From the NCBI RefSeq assembly GCF_006539685.1, contig NZ_BJNM01000004.1, forward strand, positions 62,001 through 126,000: DNA of 64,000 nt, read 5' to 3'. Below, in pieces: positions 50,689-58,689 of the stretch. The DNA comes from Gluconobacter oxydans (lineage in GTDB: Bacteria > Pseudomonadota > Alphaproteobacteria > Acetobacterales > Acetobacteraceae). The notes under the pieces were generated by a model, which was given only the letters and a program-made list of their open reading frames with translations, did no database searches and was not told where the DNA came from. A program made the position numbers and the translations under genes. Position 1 is the first letter of the stretch; every line of letters begins with the position of its first letter.

Positions 50689-50742
50689 AAAACCGGGAAA
50701 CAACTGGTTAAATTCACGATTTTTCTTGCGCTTCGTACTCTG

Positions 50743-50757
50743 GAACGAAATAAGAAC
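50743..50757. promoter_or_regulatory. Predicted LexA (SOS) box
   Basis: GAAC-GAAATAA-GAAC is a perfect GAAC-N7-GAAC direct repeat, the reverse strand of the known alphaproteobacterial LexA box GTTC-N7-GTTC. It ends five bases before the ATG of the radical-SAM gene, and no SD precedes that ATG. A loose -35 (TTGCGC, 50726) would put a -10 inside the box, so LexA would block the promoter of a leaderless mRNA. Confidence 0.78.
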
Positions 50758-50762
50758 ATGCA

Positions 50763-51995
50763 ATGAAGAAATCCCTCTCCCGGCGCCTGGCGATTCTGTC
50801 CGATGCGGCGAAATACGATGCGTCCTGCGCGTCGAGCGGATCGGGGCGCAGGGACTCGGCCAAGAGCGGCGGACTGGGGTCCACGACGGGAAACGGCATC
50901 TGCCACGCGTTCACGCCGGACGGCCGCTGCGTGTCGCTGCTCAAGATCCTGCTGACCAATTTCTGCGTCTATGACTGCGCCTACTGCATCAACCGCTCGT
51001 CCTCGAATGTGGAGCGTGCGCGGTTTACGCCGGAGGAGGTCGTATGGCTGACGCTGGAGTTCTACCGGCGCAACTGCATCGAAGGGCTGTTCCTGTCCTC
51101 GGGCATCATCCGCTCGTCCGATCACACGATGGAACAGCTCGTGCAGGTGGCACGGGATCTGCGGCTGAAGCATGGGTTCCGGGGCTATATCCATCTCAAG
51201 ACCATCCCGGATGCCTCGCCGCGCCTGCTGGAAGAAGCCGGGCGTTATGCGGACCGCCTGTCGATCAATGTGGAAATGCCGACCGTGGCTGGTCTGGAGC
51301 AGTACGCACCGCAGAAAAAGGCGGGCGGTATCCGGCAGGCTATGGGTGAGATGCGCCTGAAGATCGATGCGGGCAAGGAGCGCAGCCATACCGGCCGCAG
51401 GGCCGAGCGTTTCTCGCCGGGCGGGCAAAGCACGCAGATGATCGTGGGCGCCGATGCGGCGTCCGATCAGGATATCCTTGCCAGCAGCGCCAATCTTTAC
51501 GGCTCCTACGGGCTGCGGCGGGTCTATTATTCGGCTTTCAGTCCCATTCCCGACGCTTCCGCATTGTTGCCAGCGAAAAGCCCGCCGCTTCAGCGGGAAC
51601 ACCGGCTCTATCAGGCGGACTGGCTGTTCCGGTTCTATGGGTTCGCATTTGGAGAACTGACGGCCGGTCGCGCGGATGGAATGCTCGATCTGGAGCTGGA
51701 CCCCAAGCTGGCCTGGGCGCTGGACAACCGGGCGCTGTTTCCGGTCGATCTGAACCGGGCGTCGAAGGAAATGCTGCTGCGGGTGCCGGGGCTGGGGGTC
51801 AAGGCCGTGGCTGCCATCCTCAGGGCGCGGCGGCATCAGGCGGTGCGGCTGGAGGATCTGGCGCGGCTGAACGTGTCCATCCGCAAGGTGCGCCCGTTCG
51901 TGCAGACGCCGGGCTGGAGTCCCGCCCGCCTGACCGACCGGCAGGATCTGCGCAGCCTGTTCAGCCCCGCGCCGCAGCAGATGAGCCTTCTGTGA
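50763..51995 (+). CDS. Radical-SAM protein of the UdgX-linked DNA family
   Basis: The 410-residue product is a radical-SAM enzyme of the type annotated as putative DNA modification/repair protein (TIGR03916-like). The cluster-binding C-x3-C-x2-C is CVYDCAYC (Cys68, 72, 75). A helix-hairpin-helix DNA-binding segment lies near 327-356 (PVDLNRASKEMLLRVPGLGV). The N-terminal YDASCASSG and the GLFLSSGII block fit the family. The reaction is unknown. It overlaps the UdgX gene by ATG/TGA-type fusion (four bases), with a LexA-like box in front. Confidence 0.9.
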   Translation: MKKSLSRRLAILSDAAKYDASCASSGSGRRDSAKSGGLGSTTGNGICHAFTPDGRCVSLLKILLTNFCVYDCAYCINRSSSNVERARFTPEEVVWLTLEFYRRNCIEGLFLSSGIIRSSDHTMEQLVQVARDLRLKHGFRGYIHLKTIPDASPRLLEEAGRYADRLSINVEMPTVAGLEQYAPQKKAGGIRQAMGEMRLKIDAGKERSHTGRRAERFSPGGQSTQMIVGADAASDQDILASSANLYGSYGLRRVYYSAFSPIPDASALLPAKSPPLQREHRLYQADWLFRFYGFAFGELTAGRADGMLDLELDPKLAWALDNRALFPVDLNRASKEMLLRVPGLGVKAVAAILRARRHQAVRLEDLARLNVSIRKVRPFVQTPGWSPARLTDRQDLRSLFSPAPQQMSLL

Positions 51996-53491
51996 CGCGT
52001 TATGTCCTGACGCTTGAGGACAGTGCCGCGTTTGAACCCTGGCGTGAGATGGCACGGGCGGCCTTGCAGCGCGCGGTCCCGCCCGAAGCCCTCGACTGGC
52101 GCATCCGGGGTGGCGAGACGGATCTTTTCGGCCAGATCACGGATGATGGCGCTGGACTGGAGGCGCTGACGGCCCTGCCTGTCGTGAAAACCGTGACCTT
52201 GCGCGCGTCCTGCATCGCGCTGCTGCCGGATCTGCTGTGCCATTCCGATCCCGGTCGGTTCGCGCTCGCCTACCGGATCGCCTGGCGGGTGCAGGGCAAT
52301 CCGCATCTGCTGGAAGTGGTGACGGATGCCGACATCGCCAGGGCGCGGATCATGGTGCGGCAGAACCGGGAAGACTGCCACAAGATGGCGTCTTTCCTCC
52401 GCTTCCGGGAAGAACCGGTCCAACAGGGCGAGGGGCAGGGCGAGAGGCGGCGGTTCCTCGCCTGGTTCGAGCCGCAGCATCATATTCTTGAACGCATCGC
52501 CCCGTTCTTCTCGAAGCGCTTCACGGACATGGACTGGATGATCCTCACCCCGCGCGGATCGATCCGCTGGGACGGAAAAGAGCTGGTGTGCAGTCCGGAA
52601 CCCTGCGAGCAGCCGGAACTGGACGACGGTTTCGGGGAACTGTGGGACACCTACTATGCCTCGACCTTCAATCCGGCCCGGGTGCGTACCAAAGCGATGC
52701 GCCGTGAAATGCCCGGCCGTTACTGGAAGAACCTGCCGGAAACCCGCCTGATCCCGCAGCTCGTTGCCGGAGCCGAAGCACGGGTGCGGACGATGGCGGA
52801 GCAGGAACTCCAGCCCGCCCCGGCCTTTCATGAGCGTCTGCGGGCCCGTGAGCAGCTTCCGGCCGAACCGATGCCGGATGTGGCAGAAAATCTTGAGGAT
52901 CTGGCCGCTCAGGTCCGGACCTGTACGGCCTGTCCGCTGCACTGCTCGGCCACGCAGGCGGTGGTGGGAGAGGGGCCGGCAGACGCGCGCATCATGGTCG
53001 TCGGAGAGCAGCCGGGCGATCAGGAAGACCTGGCAGGGCGTCCCTTCGTCGGTCCGGCAGGGCAGCTTCTGCATGAGGCACTCGGAGAGGCAGGGGTTGA
53101 TCGCGGTGCGCTGTATCTGACGAACGCCGTCAAGCATTTCCGCTTCCGTCTTCAGGGGCGGCGGCGCATTCATCAGAACCCGGATGCAGGGCATGTGGCG
53201 GCCTGCCGCCCCTGGCTGGAGCAGGAAATCGCGCTGATCCGTCCGAAACTCATCGTCTCGCTGGGGGCCACGGCACTCCGGGCGCTGGACGGGCCGGGCA
53301 TGGCAATGTCGGATGTGCGTGGAACGTCATGGACGGTGGGGCGTGGCGAAAATGCTGTCCGGCGTCTGGCACTCGCCCATCCGTCCTGGCTGCTGCGGCT
53401 GGGGGAGGGCGCGCAGGCTGAGAGCGAGCGGCAGCGCTTCGTCGAGGGGCTCACCCGTCTGAGGGACTTTCCGGATCAATCGGGGTCGTAA
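51992..53491 (+). CDS. DUF4130-UdgX uracil-DNA glycosylase-superfamily fusion
   Basis: The 499-residue protein joins a DUF4130 domain (about 1-250) to a UdgX-type domain (about 300-490). The latter has CTACPLHC (Cys311, Cys314, Cys318) and Cys405 for the Fe-S cluster, the motif A block starting GEQPGD at residue 338, and the loop QGRRRIHQNPD with His394. In mycobacterial UdgX this KRRIH loop histidine bonds covalently to the abasic sugar after uracil removal, so the same chemistry is likely here. It is co-transcribed with the radical-SAM gene. Confidence 0.91.
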   Translation: MTRYVLTLEDSAAFEPWREMARAALQRAVPPEALDWRIRGGETDLFGQITDDGAGLEALTALPVVKTVTLRASCIALLPDLLCHSDPGRFALAYRIAWRVQGNPHLLEVVTDADIARARIMVRQNREDCHKMASFLRFREEPVQQGEGQGERRRFLAWFEPQHHILERIAPFFSKRFTDMDWMILTPRGSIRWDGKELVCSPEPCEQPELDDGFGELWDTYYASTFNPARVRTKAMRREMPGRYWKNLPETRLIPQLVAGAEARVRTMAEQELQPAPAFHERLRAREQLPAEPMPDVAENLEDLAAQVRTCTACPLHCSATQAVVGEGPADARIMVVGEQPGDQEDLAGRPFVGPAGQLLHEALGEAGVDRGALYLTNAVKHFRFRLQGRRRIHQNPDAGHVAACRPWLEQEIALIRPKLIVSLGATALRALDGPGMAMSDVRGTSWTVGRGENAVRRLALAHPSWLLRLGEGAQAESERQRFVEGLTRLRDFPDQSGS

Positions 53492-53500
53492 GGGACGGCA

Positions 53501-53532
53501 CGTTTCAGAGAATGGAAACGGATCAGTTTTTT
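53501..53532 (+). terminator. Possible terminator after the UdgX gene
   Basis: A 6-bp stem CGTTTC / GAAACG is followed, six bases later, by TTTTTT. The gap makes it a moderate candidate. Confidence 0.4.
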
Positions 53533-53661: not shown

Positions 53662-54768
53662 ATGGCGCAAGGCGATCAGGCCGATCACGCGCAGGGTGAC
53701 ACGACATCCGACAAGAACGGAAAGCCGCAGAAAAAGCGCCATCCCCTTGTCCGTGTCGCGCTGATCCTGCTGGTGATTGTGGTGCTCGTGGGTATCGGGG
53801 CCTATCTTTTCCTGACCCGCAACAATATCGAGACGGATGACGCCTACACGGCCGGTCGCAAGATCGCCATTGCGCCCCACGTCAACGGTTACGTCACGCA
53901 GCTTCTGGTGAACGACAACCAGTTCGTCCATGCGGGTGACCTGCTCGTGCGGATCGACAGCCGCGACTATGCAGCGTCCCTGAACAAGGCTGAAGCCGCC
54001 GTCTCGCAGGCGAAAGCCAATATCGACGCCTACCAGCTCATGCTGGCCGTGGCGCACAAGAACTTCCCGGGACAGCTCGTCACCGCGCAGGGTAATCTTG
54101 CTGCCGCGCATGCGCAGCTCGTCAAGGCGGAAGCCGATTACCGCCGCCAGCGCTCGGTGGCCCGCGCCGCCACGTCGCAGCAGGACATCGACTATGCCCG
54201 CGCCGCGCTGGATCAGGCGAAAGCCCGCGTGCTTCAGGCCCAGGGTCAGCTGACGCAGGCCGAGCCGGTCAAGGAAAACGTGGCCAATGCCGATGCCCGC
54301 GTTTCGCAGGAACAGGCTGCCCTGGCCGCGGCCAATGCGGATCTGGTGCAGGCCCGTCTGAACCTGGAATGGACGGAAGTCCGTGCCCCGCATGACGGCT
54401 GGATTTCCCAGCGTAATGTCGAGCGCGGCAACTTCGTGCAGACCGGCCAGCAGATGTTCTCCATCGTCGAGCCGGAAGTCTGGGTCGTGGCGAATTACAA
54501 GGAAACGCAGCTCACCCACATGCGTCCGGGCCAGAAGGTGGATATCGAGGTGGATGCCTATCCGCAGCTCGAACTGCACGGCCACGTGGACTCCATCCAG
54601 CTCGGCTCGGGTGAATCCTTCAGCGCCTTCCCTCCCGAGAACGCGACCGGCAACTTCGTGAAGACGGTGCAGCGTATCCCGGTGAAGATCGTGCTGGACA
54701 GCGGTCTTGATCCGAACATCCCGCTGGCCCTTGGTCTGTCTGTCGTACCGACGGTCTATGTGAAATGA
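53662..54768 (+). CDS. EmrA-like efflux adaptor (HlyD family)
   Basis: 368 residues: one N-terminal membrane helix (about 30-55), IETDDAYTAGRKIAIAPHVN at the start of the lipoyl/beta-barrel part, a coiled-coil hairpin (AEAAVSQAKANIDAYQL to NADLVQARLNLEW), and VRAPHDGWISQRNVERGNFV. It links the inner-membrane pump with the outer-membrane channel in the periplasm. Overlaps emrB by ATGA. Confidence 0.92.
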   Translation: MAQGDQADHAQGDTTSDKNGKPQKKRHPLVRVALILLVIVVLVGIGAYLFLTRNNIETDDAYTAGRKIAIAPHVNGYVTQLLVNDNQFVHAGDLLVRIDSRDYAASLNKAEAAVSQAKANIDAYQLMLAVAHKNFPGQLVTAQGNLAAAHAQLVKAEADYRRQRSVARAATSQQDIDYARAALDQAKARVLQAQGQLTQAEPVKENVANADARVSQEQAALAAANADLVQARLNLEWTEVRAPHDGWISQRNVERGNFVQTGQQMFSIVEPEVWVVANYKETQLTHMRPGQKVDIEVDAYPQLELHGHVDSIQLGSGESFSAFPPENATGNFVKTVQRIPVKIVLDSGLDPNIPLALGLSVVPTVYVK

Positions 54769-56342
54769 GCGATACTGCCGGGCATCAGGACTGGAAACCC
54801 AGTCACAATCCGTGGCTTGTGGCCGTCACGGTCACGCTGGCGGCTTTCATGGAGGTGCTGGACACCACCATCGTCAACGTGGCGCTGCCGCATATCGCGG
54901 GATCGCTCGGCAGTTCGTATGATGACGCCACCTGGGCGCTCACGTCCTATCTGGTGGCGAACGGAATCGTCCTGACGATTTCGGGCTGGCTCTCGCGGCT
55001 GTTTGGCCGCAAACGCTACTTCCTGATCTGCATCACGATGTTCACCGTCTCGTCCTTCCTGTGCGGACTGGCGACGTCGCTGCCCATGCTCGTGGTGTTC
55101 CGGCTCATGCAGGGCTTCTTTGGGGGCGGCCTGCAACCGAGCCAGCAGTCCATCATTCTCGACACGTTCCCGCCCGAAAAGCGCGGCGCGGCGTTCGGCC
55201 TGACCGCCATCGCCACCATCGTCGGCCCGGTTCTGGGCCCGATGCTGGGCGGCTACCTGACGGACAATTTCTCCTGGCGCTGGATTTTCTTCGTCAACGT
55301 GCCTTTCGGCATCATCACGGTCATGGCCGTGACGGCCTTCGTCGAGGACCCACCCTGGGAGCGCAAGAAGCGCGAGAAGGTGGACGTGGTCGGCATCAGC
55401 CTGATCACGCTGGGCCTCGGCTGCCTTGAAGTCATGTGCGACCGCGGCGAGGATGACGACTGGTTCGGCTCGCCCTTCATCGTCACCATGGGCATTCTGG
55501 GCGCTATCGGCGTCATCGGGGCAATCGTCTGGCTGTGCAATGCGAAGAACCCGCTGGTCCGCCTGTCGGTTCTCAAGGACCGTAACTTCGCGACCGGCAT
55601 GCTGCTGATCTCGATGGTCGGCGCCACGCTGTACGCTTCCGCCATCATCGTTCCGCAGTTCGCCCAGCAGGTGCTCGGCTACACCGCGACGAATTCCGGC
55701 CTGCTGCTCGCTCCCGGCGGCGTGGCGGTGATCTGCCTGATCCCGATCGTGGGGCGGCTGATGAAGTTCATCCAGATGCGCTACATCATCGCCTTCGGGT
55801 TCTTCGCGATGGGCATGGCCATGTTCCAGGCCTCGAACCTCTATGCCGGGACGGATTTCAGGCACCTGATGTTCTACCGCATCAGCCAGACGGCCTCGCT
55901 GGCCTTCCTGTTCGTGCCGATCTCGACGATCGCCTATTCGACCCTGCCGCGCGAACTGAATTCCGATGCGTCGGCCCTGTTCTCGATGGCCCGGAACTAT
56001 GTCGGATCGCTGGCGATTTCGCTCGCCACGGCTGCCATCATCGAAACCCGGCAGCGGCATCAGACCTATGTGACGGACCACATGACCCCGGCGAACCCGG
56101 AGTTCAACAGCTATATCGCCACCGTCCAGCAGGCCGCGCAGGCGCATGGTATGGCCCCGGCCCAGGCGCACAGTTTCGCCATCTACCAGCTCTTCCGGGA
56201 CTTCACGTCGCAGGTCGCCATGCTGGCCTATAACGAGGTGTTCGACTGGATCGGCGTGATCGCGCTGTTCGTGGTGCCGCTGTGCTTCCTGCTGTCACCC
56301 AACGGCAAGAAGGAGGCCCAGGCCTCTGGTGGCGGTCACTGA
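54765..56342 (+). CDS. EmrB/QacA-type MFS drug pump (DHA2)
   Basis: The 525-residue protein has 14 membrane segments and the DHA2 signature EVLDTTIVNVALPHIAG (near residues 27-43), plus GLQPSQQSIILDTFPPEKRG in the loop between helices 4 and 5 and GPVLGPMLGGYL. It exports toxic compounds using the proton gradient, together with the adaptor and outer-membrane factor. Confidence 0.93.
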   Translation: MSDTAGHQDWKPSHNPWLVAVTVTLAAFMEVLDTTIVNVALPHIAGSLGSSYDDATWALTSYLVANGIVLTISGWLSRLFGRKRYFLICITMFTVSSFLCGLATSLPMLVVFRLMQGFFGGGLQPSQQSIILDTFPPEKRGAAFGLTAIATIVGPVLGPMLGGYLTDNFSWRWIFFVNVPFGIITVMAVTAFVEDPPWERKKREKVDVVGISLITLGLGCLEVMCDRGEDDDWFGSPFIVTMGILGAIGVIGAIVWLCNAKNPLVRLSVLKDRNFATGMLLISMVGATLYASAIIVPQFAQQVLGYTATNSGLLLAPGGVAVICLIPIVGRLMKFIQMRYIIAFGFFAMGMAMFQASNLYAGTDFRHLMFYRISQTASLAFLFVPISTIAYSTLPRELNSDASALFSMARNYVGSLAISLATAAIIETRQRHQTYVTDHMTPANPEFNSYIATVQQAAQAHGMAPAQAHSFAIYQLFRDFTSQVAMLAYNEVFDWIGVIALFVVPLCFLLSPNGKKEAQASGGGH

Positions 56343-57013
56343 TGGCGCGGTTCGTAGATCTTCAGGAAGCTGTCGGCGATGAAGCCGGCAAGCTCCGCAA
56401 TTGCGGCATCGCTGTCATCGACCGACAGCCGGAAACGGCGGCGCTGGACGATGCGGGTCTGGCACATGAGCAGGAACTGCTCGGCCGACAGGGCCGGATC
56501 GGCGATGTCCAACTCTCCGCGGGCCACGCTTCGCGTCAGGAATTCCGTCAGATTGCCCAGCGTCCGGTCGAAGCCGTAGCGCCAGAACGTATCGGCCAGG
56601 TTGGGGAACTTCTCGACCTCGCCGATGATGATGCGATACAAGCCCAGAGCCATCGGCGAGATGAGCAGATGGGTCGTCATGTCCGCGAACCGGACCAGCG
56701 TGAGACGAACGGACTGTCCGTCACTGCGCGACAGCGCCACGATGGGCGCGAGACGGCAGCGGGCCTGCTCATCGAAGAACGCGGAGAACAGGGACGCCTT
56801 GCCATCGAAATGATTGTACAGCGTCCCCTTGGACACACCCGCCATCTGCGCGATGCGGGACATGGACGCCCCTTCGTATCCATTCGCCAGAAAGACCGTT
56901 CCGGCACCTTTCAGGATCTGTTCGCGCTTGGCGCACCCTGCAGGATCGGCGCTGCCGGCCTCGTCGGCTCCGGCGGAAGTGCCCGCGCTGCCATCGTCCA
57001 TGATGCCCGTCAT
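56336..57013 (-). CDS. TetR-family repressor of the efflux locus
   Basis: 225 residues; the DNA-binding head is ILKGAGTVFLANGYEGASMS, then RIAQMAGVSKGTLYNHF, followed by the usual helical ligand domain. It overlaps the emrB stop by seven bases on the other strand. The operators at 53567 and 57060 imply it represses emrAB and the outer-membrane gene, and probably itself. Confidence 0.9.
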   Translation of the reverse strand: MTGIMDDGSAGTSAGADEAGSADPAGCAKREQILKGAGTVFLANGYEGASMSRIAQMAGVSKGTLYNHFDGKASLFSAFFDEQARCRLAPIVALSRSDGQSVRLTLVRFADMTTHLLISPMALGLYRIIIGEVEKFPNLADTFWRYGFDRTLGNLTEFLTRSVARGELDIADPALSAEQFLLMCQTRIVQRRRFRLSVDDSDAAIAELAGFIADSFLKIYEPRHQ

Positions 57014-57059
57014 GTGAGCGAGAGATCCTTCTGTCCGTCAGGTCGAGTTCCTGACATGC

Positions 57060-57078
57060 TGACCGAACCGGTCGGTCA
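57060..57078. promoter_or_regulatory. TetR operator, copy 2
   Basis: TGACCGAACCGGTCGGTCA lies in the divergent region between tetR (start 57013) and the outer-membrane efflux gene (start 57112), differing from copy 1 at one central base. Confidence 0.87.
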
Positions 57079-57111
57079 CCGCAAGATCATTTCCGCCTCA
57101 GGAGTTTCTTT

Positions 57112-58689
57112 GTGAGCGCAGCCTTTACTTCCCGCGCGCTGCTTTGCGGCTGCGCCCTGTTCACCCTGTCCGGCTGCCTCATGGTGGGGCCTGAATATCA
57201 TGCGCCCAAGCCCTGGTCGCCGGCACATTACGCCGATCATACGGCCGGCGCGCCCGACAGCATCGTCAGCGAGATGAAGGCCGACAGCCACTGGTGGCAG
57301 ATCTTCCACGATCCGGAACTGACCTCGCTGGAAGACCGTCTGGTCAACCAGAACCTGTCCTTCCGCCTCGCGACCGCCAATCTGGCGCAGAGCCGCGCGC
57401 AGCTCATCATGGCGGGTGCCGAGCGCTTCCCGGCCCTGAGCGCCACGGGTTCGTACCAGCGCAGCCAGCACAGCACCAAGCAGTTGCAGGAAATCATCGG
57501 CCATGTCGCCGGCGGCATCGCGAAATCTGAAGGCGGCTCGATCGGCAGCACGGTCGGCCCGATGCTTCAGGATGCCGCCGGTGGCGCCAATATCCCGCTG
57601 CTGAACCAGTGGCGCAGCGAGATCGACGCGACTTACGAGATCGACCTGTGGGGTCGCGTGGCGCATCAGTACGATGCCGCCAAGGCCGATCTTCAGGCCA
57701 CGGATGAAGAGCGTCGCTCCGTCCTCATCGCCCAGCAGGCCGATATGGCCCATGGTTATATGAGCCTGCGTGGCGACCAGCAGCGCCTGAAGATCCTGCG
57801 CGACAACATCAAGGTCCTGACCCAGATCGCCACCATCGCGCAGGACCGCTATCGCGGCGGCCTGGTGACGGAACTGGACGTGGATTCCGCACAGGCCCGC
57901 CTGCATGACACGCAGGGTCAGGAAGCACAGCTCGAGCAGGCTGTGGCGCAGGAAGAGAATGCACTCGCCCTGCTTCTGGGTGCTCCACCGGAAAGCCTGA
58001 ATACCGAGCTGGAGAAGAACGCCGGCGTGCCGGTCGTCCCGCCGGTCGTGCCCGTCGGCCTTCCGTCCGAACTGGCCCATCGCCGCCCGGACATCCGCGA
58101 AGCCGAAGCCCGTCTGCGCGGTGCGGTTGCCGAAGTGGGCGAAGCGACGGCGGATTTCTATCCGAAGGTCACGATCAACGCCGATTTCGGCTTCCAGACC
58201 CTGTCCTTCCGCGATCTGGGCTTCTGGAACGCCCGTGCCTGGAACGTGGGGCCGTCCATCTCCCTGCCGATCTTCCAGGGCGGTCGTCTGTACGGCCAGC
58301 TTGAGCTGAAGAAATACGCCCAGAAGGCCGCGGCGATTTCCTATCAGCAGACGGTTATCAAGGCCTGGCATGACGTGGACAACGCCCTGATCGCCTATCG
58401 CGATGAACAGCTGCACCGCCAGGGCCTGCAGAACGCCGTCAACGATAACGGCAAGGCATTGGCGCTGGCGCAGAGCCAGTATCGCAGCGGCCTGACGAAC
58501 TACCTGAACGTCCTGAACGCGCAGGCGCAGCTCCAGTCCGCCCAGCTTGATCTCGCCAACAGCGATGCCACGCTGGCGACCAACCTGACGCGTCTCTACA
58601 ACGCGCTCGGCGGTGGCTGGGAAGACGCGCTTCCCGACAGCCGCGATGTGGCCAAGGCGCAGCTCGCTTCCGCCACGCCCGGCCCCTGA
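57112..58689 (+). CDS. Outer-membrane efflux channel (NodT family)
   Basis: The 525-residue TolC-like protein begins at GTG and has a lipobox near LSGC (Cys 22). The two repeats of coiled coils and beta strands are seen (for example NLSFRLATANLAQSRAQL, and VGLPSELAHRRPDIREAEAR, the family signature). It ends with a short tail. It completes the tripartite pump with emrAB. Confidence 0.92.
   Translation: MSAAFTSRALLCGCALFTLSGCLMVGPEYHAPKPWSPAHYADHTAGAPDSIVSEMKADSHWWQIFHDPELTSLEDRLVNQNLSFRLATANLAQSRAQLIMAGAERFPALSATGSYQRSQHSTKQLQEIIGHVAGGIAKSEGGSIGSTVGPMLQDAAGGANIPLLNQWRSEIDATYEIDLWGRVAHQYDAAKADLQATDEERRSVLIAQQADMAHGYMSLRGDQQRLKILRDNIKVLTQIATIAQDRYRGGLVTELDVDSAQARLHDTQGQEAQLEQAVAQEENALALLLGAPPESLNTELEKNAGVPVVPPVVPVGLPSELAHRRPDIREAEARLRGAVAEVGEATADFYPKVTINADFGFQTLSFRDLGFWNARAWNVGPSISLPIFQGGRLYGQLELKKYAQKAAAISYQQTVIKAWHDVDNALIAYRDEQLHRQGLQNAVNDNGKALALAQSQYRSGLTNYLNVLNAQAQLQSAQLDLANSDATLATNLTRLYNALGGGWEDALPDSRDVAKAQLASATPGP

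Follow-up and report, generated by a model that had tools for sequence, protein, structure and literature searches.

A putative SOS-controlled operon of Gluconobacter oxydans encoding a radical-SAM protein and a DUF4130-UdgX fusion, with a conserved LexA-type box beside the start codon

The stretch of DNA analyzed here (the window) comprises 64,000 nucleotides (nt) of a Gluconobacter oxydans contig and carries a two-gene unit preceded by a predicted LexA (SOS) operator, all on the plus strand. The operator, GAACGAAATAAGAAC, is an exact GAAC-N7-GAAC repeat at 50743-50757 and is separated by a 5-nt gap from the ATG at 50763 that begins the first gene. This gene (50763-51995) encodes a 410-residue radical S-adenosylmethionine (SAM) protein of family TIGR03916 having a helix-hairpin-helix (HhH) segment, whereas the second gene (51992-53491), which has a GTG start and overlaps the first by 4 nt, encodes a 499-residue fusion of DUF4130 and UdgX, a protein of the uracil-DNA glycosylase (UDG) type. 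The box, its distance from the ATG and the overlap of the two open reading frames (ORFs) had been given in a preliminary description of the locus and all were confirmed. The closest copies among the named relatives are those of Gluconobacter (L121 and L122), in which the radical-SAM proteins are 98-99% identical and the 5-nt spacing between box and ATG is the same.

The exact box pattern was found twice in the window, where 1.77 copies are expected, and 102 times in the genome (53 + 49 copies vs 10 + 10 for the reversed pattern). Because the pattern is so common, a lone match proves nothing and the genome-wide count was rejected as evidence; it is by its position and its conservation among relatives that the box is counted as real. 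The type of box fits this genome, since the host lexA and recA genes carry it as well. An exact copy is located at G000:C9:47736-47750, with ~75 nt between it and the beginning of the LexA match, and a box of the same type lies 101 nt upstream of recA. The locus and its host thus show what is expected of an alphaproteobacterial LexA regulon member: a GTTC/GAAC-N7 direct repeat in the promoter, and a lexA gene together with boxes at lexA and recA. Two other exact boxes of the same genome are recorded as separate observations. One of these (L031, G000:C5:45938-45952) lies 10 nt before a 482-residue ORF and may be another SOS target or a chance match, and the other (L034, G000:C10:58900-58914), an exact GAACAAAAACAGAAC box, has an mraZ-like gene 228 nt downstream.

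Matches above the TIGR03916 cut-off were found in 58 of 150 genomes of the family sample, 10 of 190 of the class sample and 53 of 299 of the phylum sample, with the genome of the window counted in all three; two other genomes of its genus in the family sample gave no match. A set of named genomes consisted of the best 80 of at least 588 relatives and hence represents best-scoring loci. The box was searched in either orientation within 150 nt of the conserved N-terminal anchor. An exact box was present near the anchor in 43 of the 57 loci of the first family set (the window and 56 further loci, the fragment G146 being left out) and in 75 of the 80 named loci, which include two xanthomonad loci that lack it. 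Pooling, deduplication and removal of loci of other classes gave 173 distinct upstream regions, with class membership taken from labels of kinship or from the titles of the records, two of which read just Proteobacteria or Pseudomonadota. The exact box was present in 156 of the 173, whereas spacers of 4-6 and 8-11 nt gave 0-3. When the proteins were clustered at 80% identity the exact box was seen in 68 of 79 representatives, compared with 0-2 for the altered spacers. A LexA match was detected in 55 of the 58 radical-SAM genomes of the family (that of G039 was weak) and none was detected in G075, G087 and G146, genomes that are 77-84% complete. The preliminary description had proposed that the operon is under SOS control and had suggested comparing box positions upstream of orthologous operons. 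That comparison, in which the box is retained in 156 of 173 copies and the Gluconobacter copies share the 5-nt spacing, together with the boxes of the host lexA and recA genes, makes the predicted SOS control of the operon well supported.

Outside Alphaproteobacteria the operator changes. Of 21 such loci, which appear to be mostly beta- or gammaproteobacterial, 13 have an exact CTGTN8ACAG directly upstream and three have this sequence with one mismatch, whereas each of four altered CTGT/ACAG spacers was found in none of the 21. The Acinetobacter-type loci L233 and L284 have neither kind of box; Acinetobacter is a genus that we take to lack LexA. Three loci (L163 from Xanthomonas dyei, L194 from Pseudoxanthomonas and L252) share a palindrome, TCTCAN5TGAGA, upstream of the radical-SAM start. 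Searches of three xanthomonad-type genomes gave 13 sites of this palindrome (8, 3 and 2) vs 0, 1 and 0 for the reversed control. Three of these sites are at this operon and four have no clear link; the others precede a uvrA-like gene (one site, by 113 nt), a helicase-like gene (two sites, by 1-15 nt) and mraZ-like genes (three sites, by 158-200 nt). The site loci include L289, L295, L296, L291, L293 and L300, and gene names were judged from sequence rather than from profiles. The palindrome may be a lineage-specific damage operator. As LexA-type boxes differ by class at the same operon, a damage-type operator has been kept while its sequence changed with lineage.

The position of the box relative to the start codon was then considered, taking as start the ATG nearest the conserved N-terminus (any error of this rule lengthens the distances). 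Among the 137 copies in the GAAC orientation, 78 have 0-6 nt between the end of the box and the start, with a mode of 2 nt (44 copies); among the representatives of the 80% clusters the values are 29 of 60 and 14, respectively. In the five annotated alphaproteobacterial plasmid copies examined, drawn from 158 records, the annotator's start is also 2-6 nt from the box in every case. In 27 of 30 loci, which all belong to the family, the boxes of lexA lie 35-103 nt from the start, and in 17 of 18 those of recA lie at 72-126 nt. (ImuA was considered as a third comparison. NF033429 gave no match above its cut-off in 30 genomes, many matches being recA, and 12 ImuA-like loci parsed by longest ORF alone were left out of every count.) A TTG is found 17-19 nt before the start of the box in 67 of the 137 copies, mainly at -18 (38 copies), and the commonest readings of the box spacer are ATATAGT (18 of 106) and ATATAAG (9 of 106). 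By comparison with these relatives the window has a candidate -10 hexamer, AATAAG, inside the box (50749-50754) and a candidate -35 hexamer, TTGCGC, at 50726-50731. With a -10-like hexamer in the box and a -35 ~17 nt further upstream, transcription would be expected to start at or beside the start codon. No Shine-Dalgarno-like stretch was seen before the ATG at 50763, as had been stated earlier. Shine-Dalgarno-like 4-mers are present in 8 of 59 copies having a gap of 0-6 nt, in one of the six with 7-12 nt, in 12 of the 41 with at least 13 nt and in 3 of 12 copies in the GTTC orientation. The earlier suggestion of a leaderless transcript is therefore upheld in part: the geometry kept in relatives makes a near-leaderless transcript likely, although the window, with its 5-nt gap and weak hexamers, is less clean than the 2-nt mode, and for this reason a leader of 0-3 nt is the most that is claimed.

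The identities of the two proteins, a radical-SAM/HhH protein and a DUF4130-UdgX fusion, agreed with those first proposed. The radical-SAM protein scored 550 bits against TIGR03916 (cut-off 343.5) and the second protein 185 bits against TIGR03915 (DUF4130) and 291 bits against TIGR03914 (UdgX); the Pfam families Radical_SAM, DUF4130 and UDG were also above their cut-offs. The HhH motif (residues 328-358, 51744-51836) fell below the gathering score of HHH_3 (PF12836; 23.4 vs 27, E 6.7e-5). The CxxxCxxC motif that marks the radical-SAM family (C68, C72 and C75, 50964-50987) is invariant in all 16 sequences of a wide set including that of the window. Three further cysteines, C22, C47 and C56 (50826-50930), are kept in 15 of 16 multi-phylum sequences, the exception being Gemmatirosa L283, and in 28 of 28 in A1; they are candidate ligands of an auxiliary Fe-S cluster. 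A sequence search of solved structures with the radical-SAM protein gave 12 matches, the best with E 0.03, and no close relative. Its structural model (mean predicted local distance difference test (pLDDT) 76, with a poor N-terminus) fits radical-SAM barrels and the best fold match, among the matches listed, was lipoyl synthase (LipA; Z 14.3, 4.2 Å over 223 residues). Despite this match the spacing C22-X24-C47-X8-C56 differs from the auxiliary-cluster motif of LipA, which we take to be an N-terminal CX4CX5C. Spore photoproduct lyase (SplB) was absent among the 50 fold matches listed for this model. A separate observation concerns L283, located on a Gemmatirosa plasmid, which encodes a 36% identical homologue with CxxxCxxC but with neither the three extra cysteines nor a DUF4130 nearby, perhaps a member of a different subfamily.

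The DUF4130 part of the second protein (residues 1-251, 51992-52744) gave a good AlphaFold2 model (residues 1-258, mean pLDDT 88). The 50 fold matches listed were mostly RecJ, Cdc45, NrnA, DhhP and family II pyrophosphatase (PPase), proteins that presumably share the DHH-DHHA1 fold, and the best among them had Z 7.4 (4.8 Å over 180 residues). Foldseek with this model found no match at E 0.001 or better, the DUF4130 profile gave just two weak unrelated matches among PDB sequences, and a Pfam scan of 39 DUF4130 members found no other family in more than two of them. DUF4130 as a sequence relative of RecJ was rejected, since hhalign of A2 against 16 RecJ-family sequences gave a probability of 0.1 of 100 over 7 columns. 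Owing to the low Z scores (7.4 or less) and the lack of Foldseek and sequence support, the DHH/RecJ-like fold is taken as a lead only. The UdgX domain (TIGR03914, residues 253-488, 52748-53455), whose nearest solved relatives are the Mycobacterium smegmatis UdgX structures, has an intact motif A (GEQPG). Its R-loop reads RRRIH, the first residue being R rather than K, and retains the nucleophilic His. On alignment to 8iie and 6ajo this residue, His394 (53171-53173), is the counterpart of His109 of M. smegmatis UdgX, described as the DNA-crosslinking residue in the accessible text of PMC10359453. Motif B reads HPSWLLR vs HPS(S/A)(L/V)(L/V)R and hence differs at the fourth position. Among 156 UdgX matches, GEQPG is present in 146 and the R-loop ends in His in 129 and in Tyr in seven, with 20 giving no R-loop by pattern.

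Comparison of the partner genes showed that the near-constant core of the operon is radical SAM plus DUF4130. By tblastn, 191 of 199 loci have DUF4130 on the strand of the radical-SAM gene, with other ORFs between the two genes in a few (no common theme was seen in these, judged by eye only), and a profile found it in two further loci, L284 and L285. In L073, L113 and L173 the contig leaves no room for the gene, and L251, L254 and L283 have no DUF4130 nearby. UdgX is on the same strand in 156 of the 199 loci. A closed short DUF4130 partner with no UdgX beside it was found in 30 of the 191 loci (five more were undecided); an exact LexA-type box accompanies 21 of these 30. Searches of the whole genomes or records of these 30 detected UdgX above its cut-off elsewhere in seven (L009, L011, L015, L020, L030, L105 and L194), indicating that UdgX can be kept apart from radical SAM and DUF4130. 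The other 23 gave none above the cut-off; seven of them had no match at all and 16 had weaker UDG-type matches only, most likely to other UDG families. These 23 include one 163-kb plasmid record, one genome that is 84% complete and Acetobacter musti (L125, radical SAM 73% identical); in 16 of the 23 the operon carries an exact LexA-type box. In copies from Bacteroidota and Fusobacteriota and in those of the Acinetobacter type, DUF4130 alone adjoins the radical-SAM gene. Two records deserve separate mention. L285 (3968-8460), from a human faecal record labelled bacteriophage, has radical SAM and DUF4130 followed by a Rad3/DinG-like helicase. L284 (CAKLQH020000003.1) is titled as an Acinetobacter phage, but its glyS, glyQ and aidB-like genes give it the look of a contig from a bacterial chromosome.

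These findings lead us to favor, by a modest degree of belief, an SOS-controlled bicistronic operon with a near-leaderless transcript, in which the radical-SAM enzyme and DUF4130 would process a damaged base and UdgX would be an add-on. In uninduced cells LexA bound to the direct-repeat box would cover the -10 of the promoter. Upon DNA damage RecA would trigger LexA cleavage and the box would be cleared, whereupon RNA polymerase would start at or within ~3 nt of the ATG to give an almost leaderless mRNA that is translated without a Shine-Dalgarno sequence. The products would be a radical-SAM enzyme, putatively able to bind DNA, and DUF4130, its near-constant partner, which is fused here to UdgX. 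These two would form the working core and most likely process the damaged base by radical chemistry, whereas UdgX, which would remove uracil and could then bond covalently to the abasic DNA, would hold or flag a subset of sites.

Several points weigh against this proposal. The box is missing in exact form from 17 of the 173 copies and is present in the GTTC orientation only in 19, the relatives are non-independent samples, and the 102 exact copies in the genome show how readily the pattern occurs. More than 6 nt separate box and start in 59 of the 137 GAAC-oriented copies, and TTG also occurs 0-10 times at other single offsets between -30 and -9, with up to 10 copies at -24 and -16. A consensus promoter scan found no promoter here and the hexamers TTGCGC and AATAAG are poor. 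The missing Shine-Dalgarno sequence is weak evidence because in the close copies the box occupies that place. LexA binding, induction and the 5' end are predictions from sequence, and action of the radical-SAM enzyme on DNA is a proposal. Finally, the seven of 30 genomes having UdgX elsewhere point to a kept link with that protein.

Other explanations of the operon differ in how much of this proposal they retain. The same SOS control could act on a transcript with a conventional leader, begun upstream of the box, a possibility we hold to be real but doubtful. The weak hexamers of the window and the 59 copies with longer distances would fit it, and spacers such as ATATAAGG could act as weak Shine-Dalgarno sequences. 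However, an upstream start would leave the box within the transcript, and in many relatives the spacer hexamer and TTG phasing set the -10 inside the box. A bolder version of the favored proposal is equally tentative. It posits a special SOS promoter used across Alphaproteobacteria, in which the -10 would be in the operator, mostly 2 nt from the start, and repression and leaderless initiation would share one 17-nt module. This promoter would drive a radical-SAM enzyme having an extra C22/C47/C56 Fe-S cluster plus a RecJ-like non-nuclease DUF4130, and the system would be a new base-lesion repair with UdgX optional. It is unlikely, in our estimate, that the system is instead centered on uracil, with UdgX as its business end and radical SAM and DUF4130 helping to excise, protect or resolve uracil or abasic sites left by SOS polymerases. 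The intact UdgX motifs, the presence of UdgX at 156 of 199 loci and the seven genomes that have it elsewhere speak for this view, and in the accessible text of PMC8565304 the operon is described as a putative system for base excision repair. Nevertheless, radical SAM and DUF4130 are near-constant and UdgX is often absent: 30 of 191 loci have DUF4130 and no adjacent UdgX, 21 of these keep the exact box, 23 lack UdgX above the cut-off (16 of them having the weaker UDG-type matches), and the Bacteroidota, Fusobacteriota and Acinetobacter-type copies do with DUF4130 alone. Joint action of the pair on uracil, one of the substrates first suggested, is thus weakened but keeps some probability.

The remaining explanations are much less probable. 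A radical-SAM modifier of DNA, serving modification or anti-phage defence and expressed on damage or infection, would account for the patchy spread (58 of 150 family genomes above the cut-off, with two congeneric genomes lacking a match) and for the 158 plasmid records that have a copy, some of which are chromosome-sized. We think this improbable, as PADLOC gave no match, class-specific LexA-type boxes are conserved and phage or viral records were few (two loci in one search, 10 records in another). A role in RNA or tRNA modification or in metabolism, with incidental SOS control, is no easier to credit. Among the fold matches listed for the radical-SAM model, the best are lipoyl synthase and other non-DNA enzymes, but the common radical-SAM barrel is uninformative on substrate, and the HhH segment, the DUF4130/UdgX partner, the SOS boxes and the helicase gene adjoining in L285 argue otherwise. 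That the box is a chance match without a role might be suggested by its 102 exact copies in the genome. This was ruled out, as very nearly beyond belief, by the conservation in 156 of 173 copies and the operator turnover between classes.

How the operon relates to known systems can be stated in part. We take COG4277 to be the same family as TIGR03916. LexA-type regulation of a COG1573-COG4277 operon has been reported in Bacteroidetes in PMC8565304, and for the UDG system the accessible text of that paper cites Verrucomicrobia and Alphaproteobacteria. Control by the SOS system is thus already known for operons of this kind. The operon described there resembles the present one in having a UDG-family gene with a COG4277 gene under LexA control, whereas in the window the radical-SAM gene is paired with one for a DUF4130-UdgX fusion and the operator lies almost against the start codon, neither of which is discussed in the accessible part of that paper. 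DUF4130 has been linked with SplB-like radical-SAM and UDG genes and predicted to be a mutagenesis-related enzyme (PMC3765255). The gene association is the same, but the radical-SAM protein in the available portion of that work is SplB-like rather than TIGR03916, and promoter data are not given there. The M. smegmatis UdgX structures (6AIL, 6AJO and 8IIE; PMC10359453, as far as its text was accessible) share motif A GEQPG and an R-loop with the crosslinking His; in contrast, the protein studied here has RRRIH rather than KRRIH and HPSWLLR rather than HPS(S/A) in motif B, is fused to DUF4130 and is encoded in an operon with radical SAM. Caulobacter SOS promoters with GTTCN7GTTC (PMC12700426) have the same type of box; the word "uracil" is absent from the accessible main text of that paper, which does not take up how far the operator of the present operon lies from the start. 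The literature searched, from which most subscription journals fell outside the scope, gave no description of the operator-to-start geometry or of UdgX loss from the operon, and no assigned reaction for the TIGR03916 radical-SAM family was found in it. The feature is real and of an ordinary kind; what it adds is a neat detail of the promoter and a more sharply posed question about the enzyme. If the SOS-controlled unit is radical SAM plus DUF4130, with or without UdgX, the question widens from uracil to damaged DNA generally, and the operator so close to the start codon would give a clean case for SOS induction of a leaderless message.

Downstream of the second gene a stem scan found a terminator-like stem at 53501-53520 on the plus strand; four such stems were found in the region vs 2.1 expected in shuffles. 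The DNA 3' of the operon (53662-58689) contains, judged by look, an HlyD/EmrA-like gene, a major facilitator superfamily (MFS) transporter and an outer-membrane efflux protein, together with a TetR-like regulator on the opposite strand.

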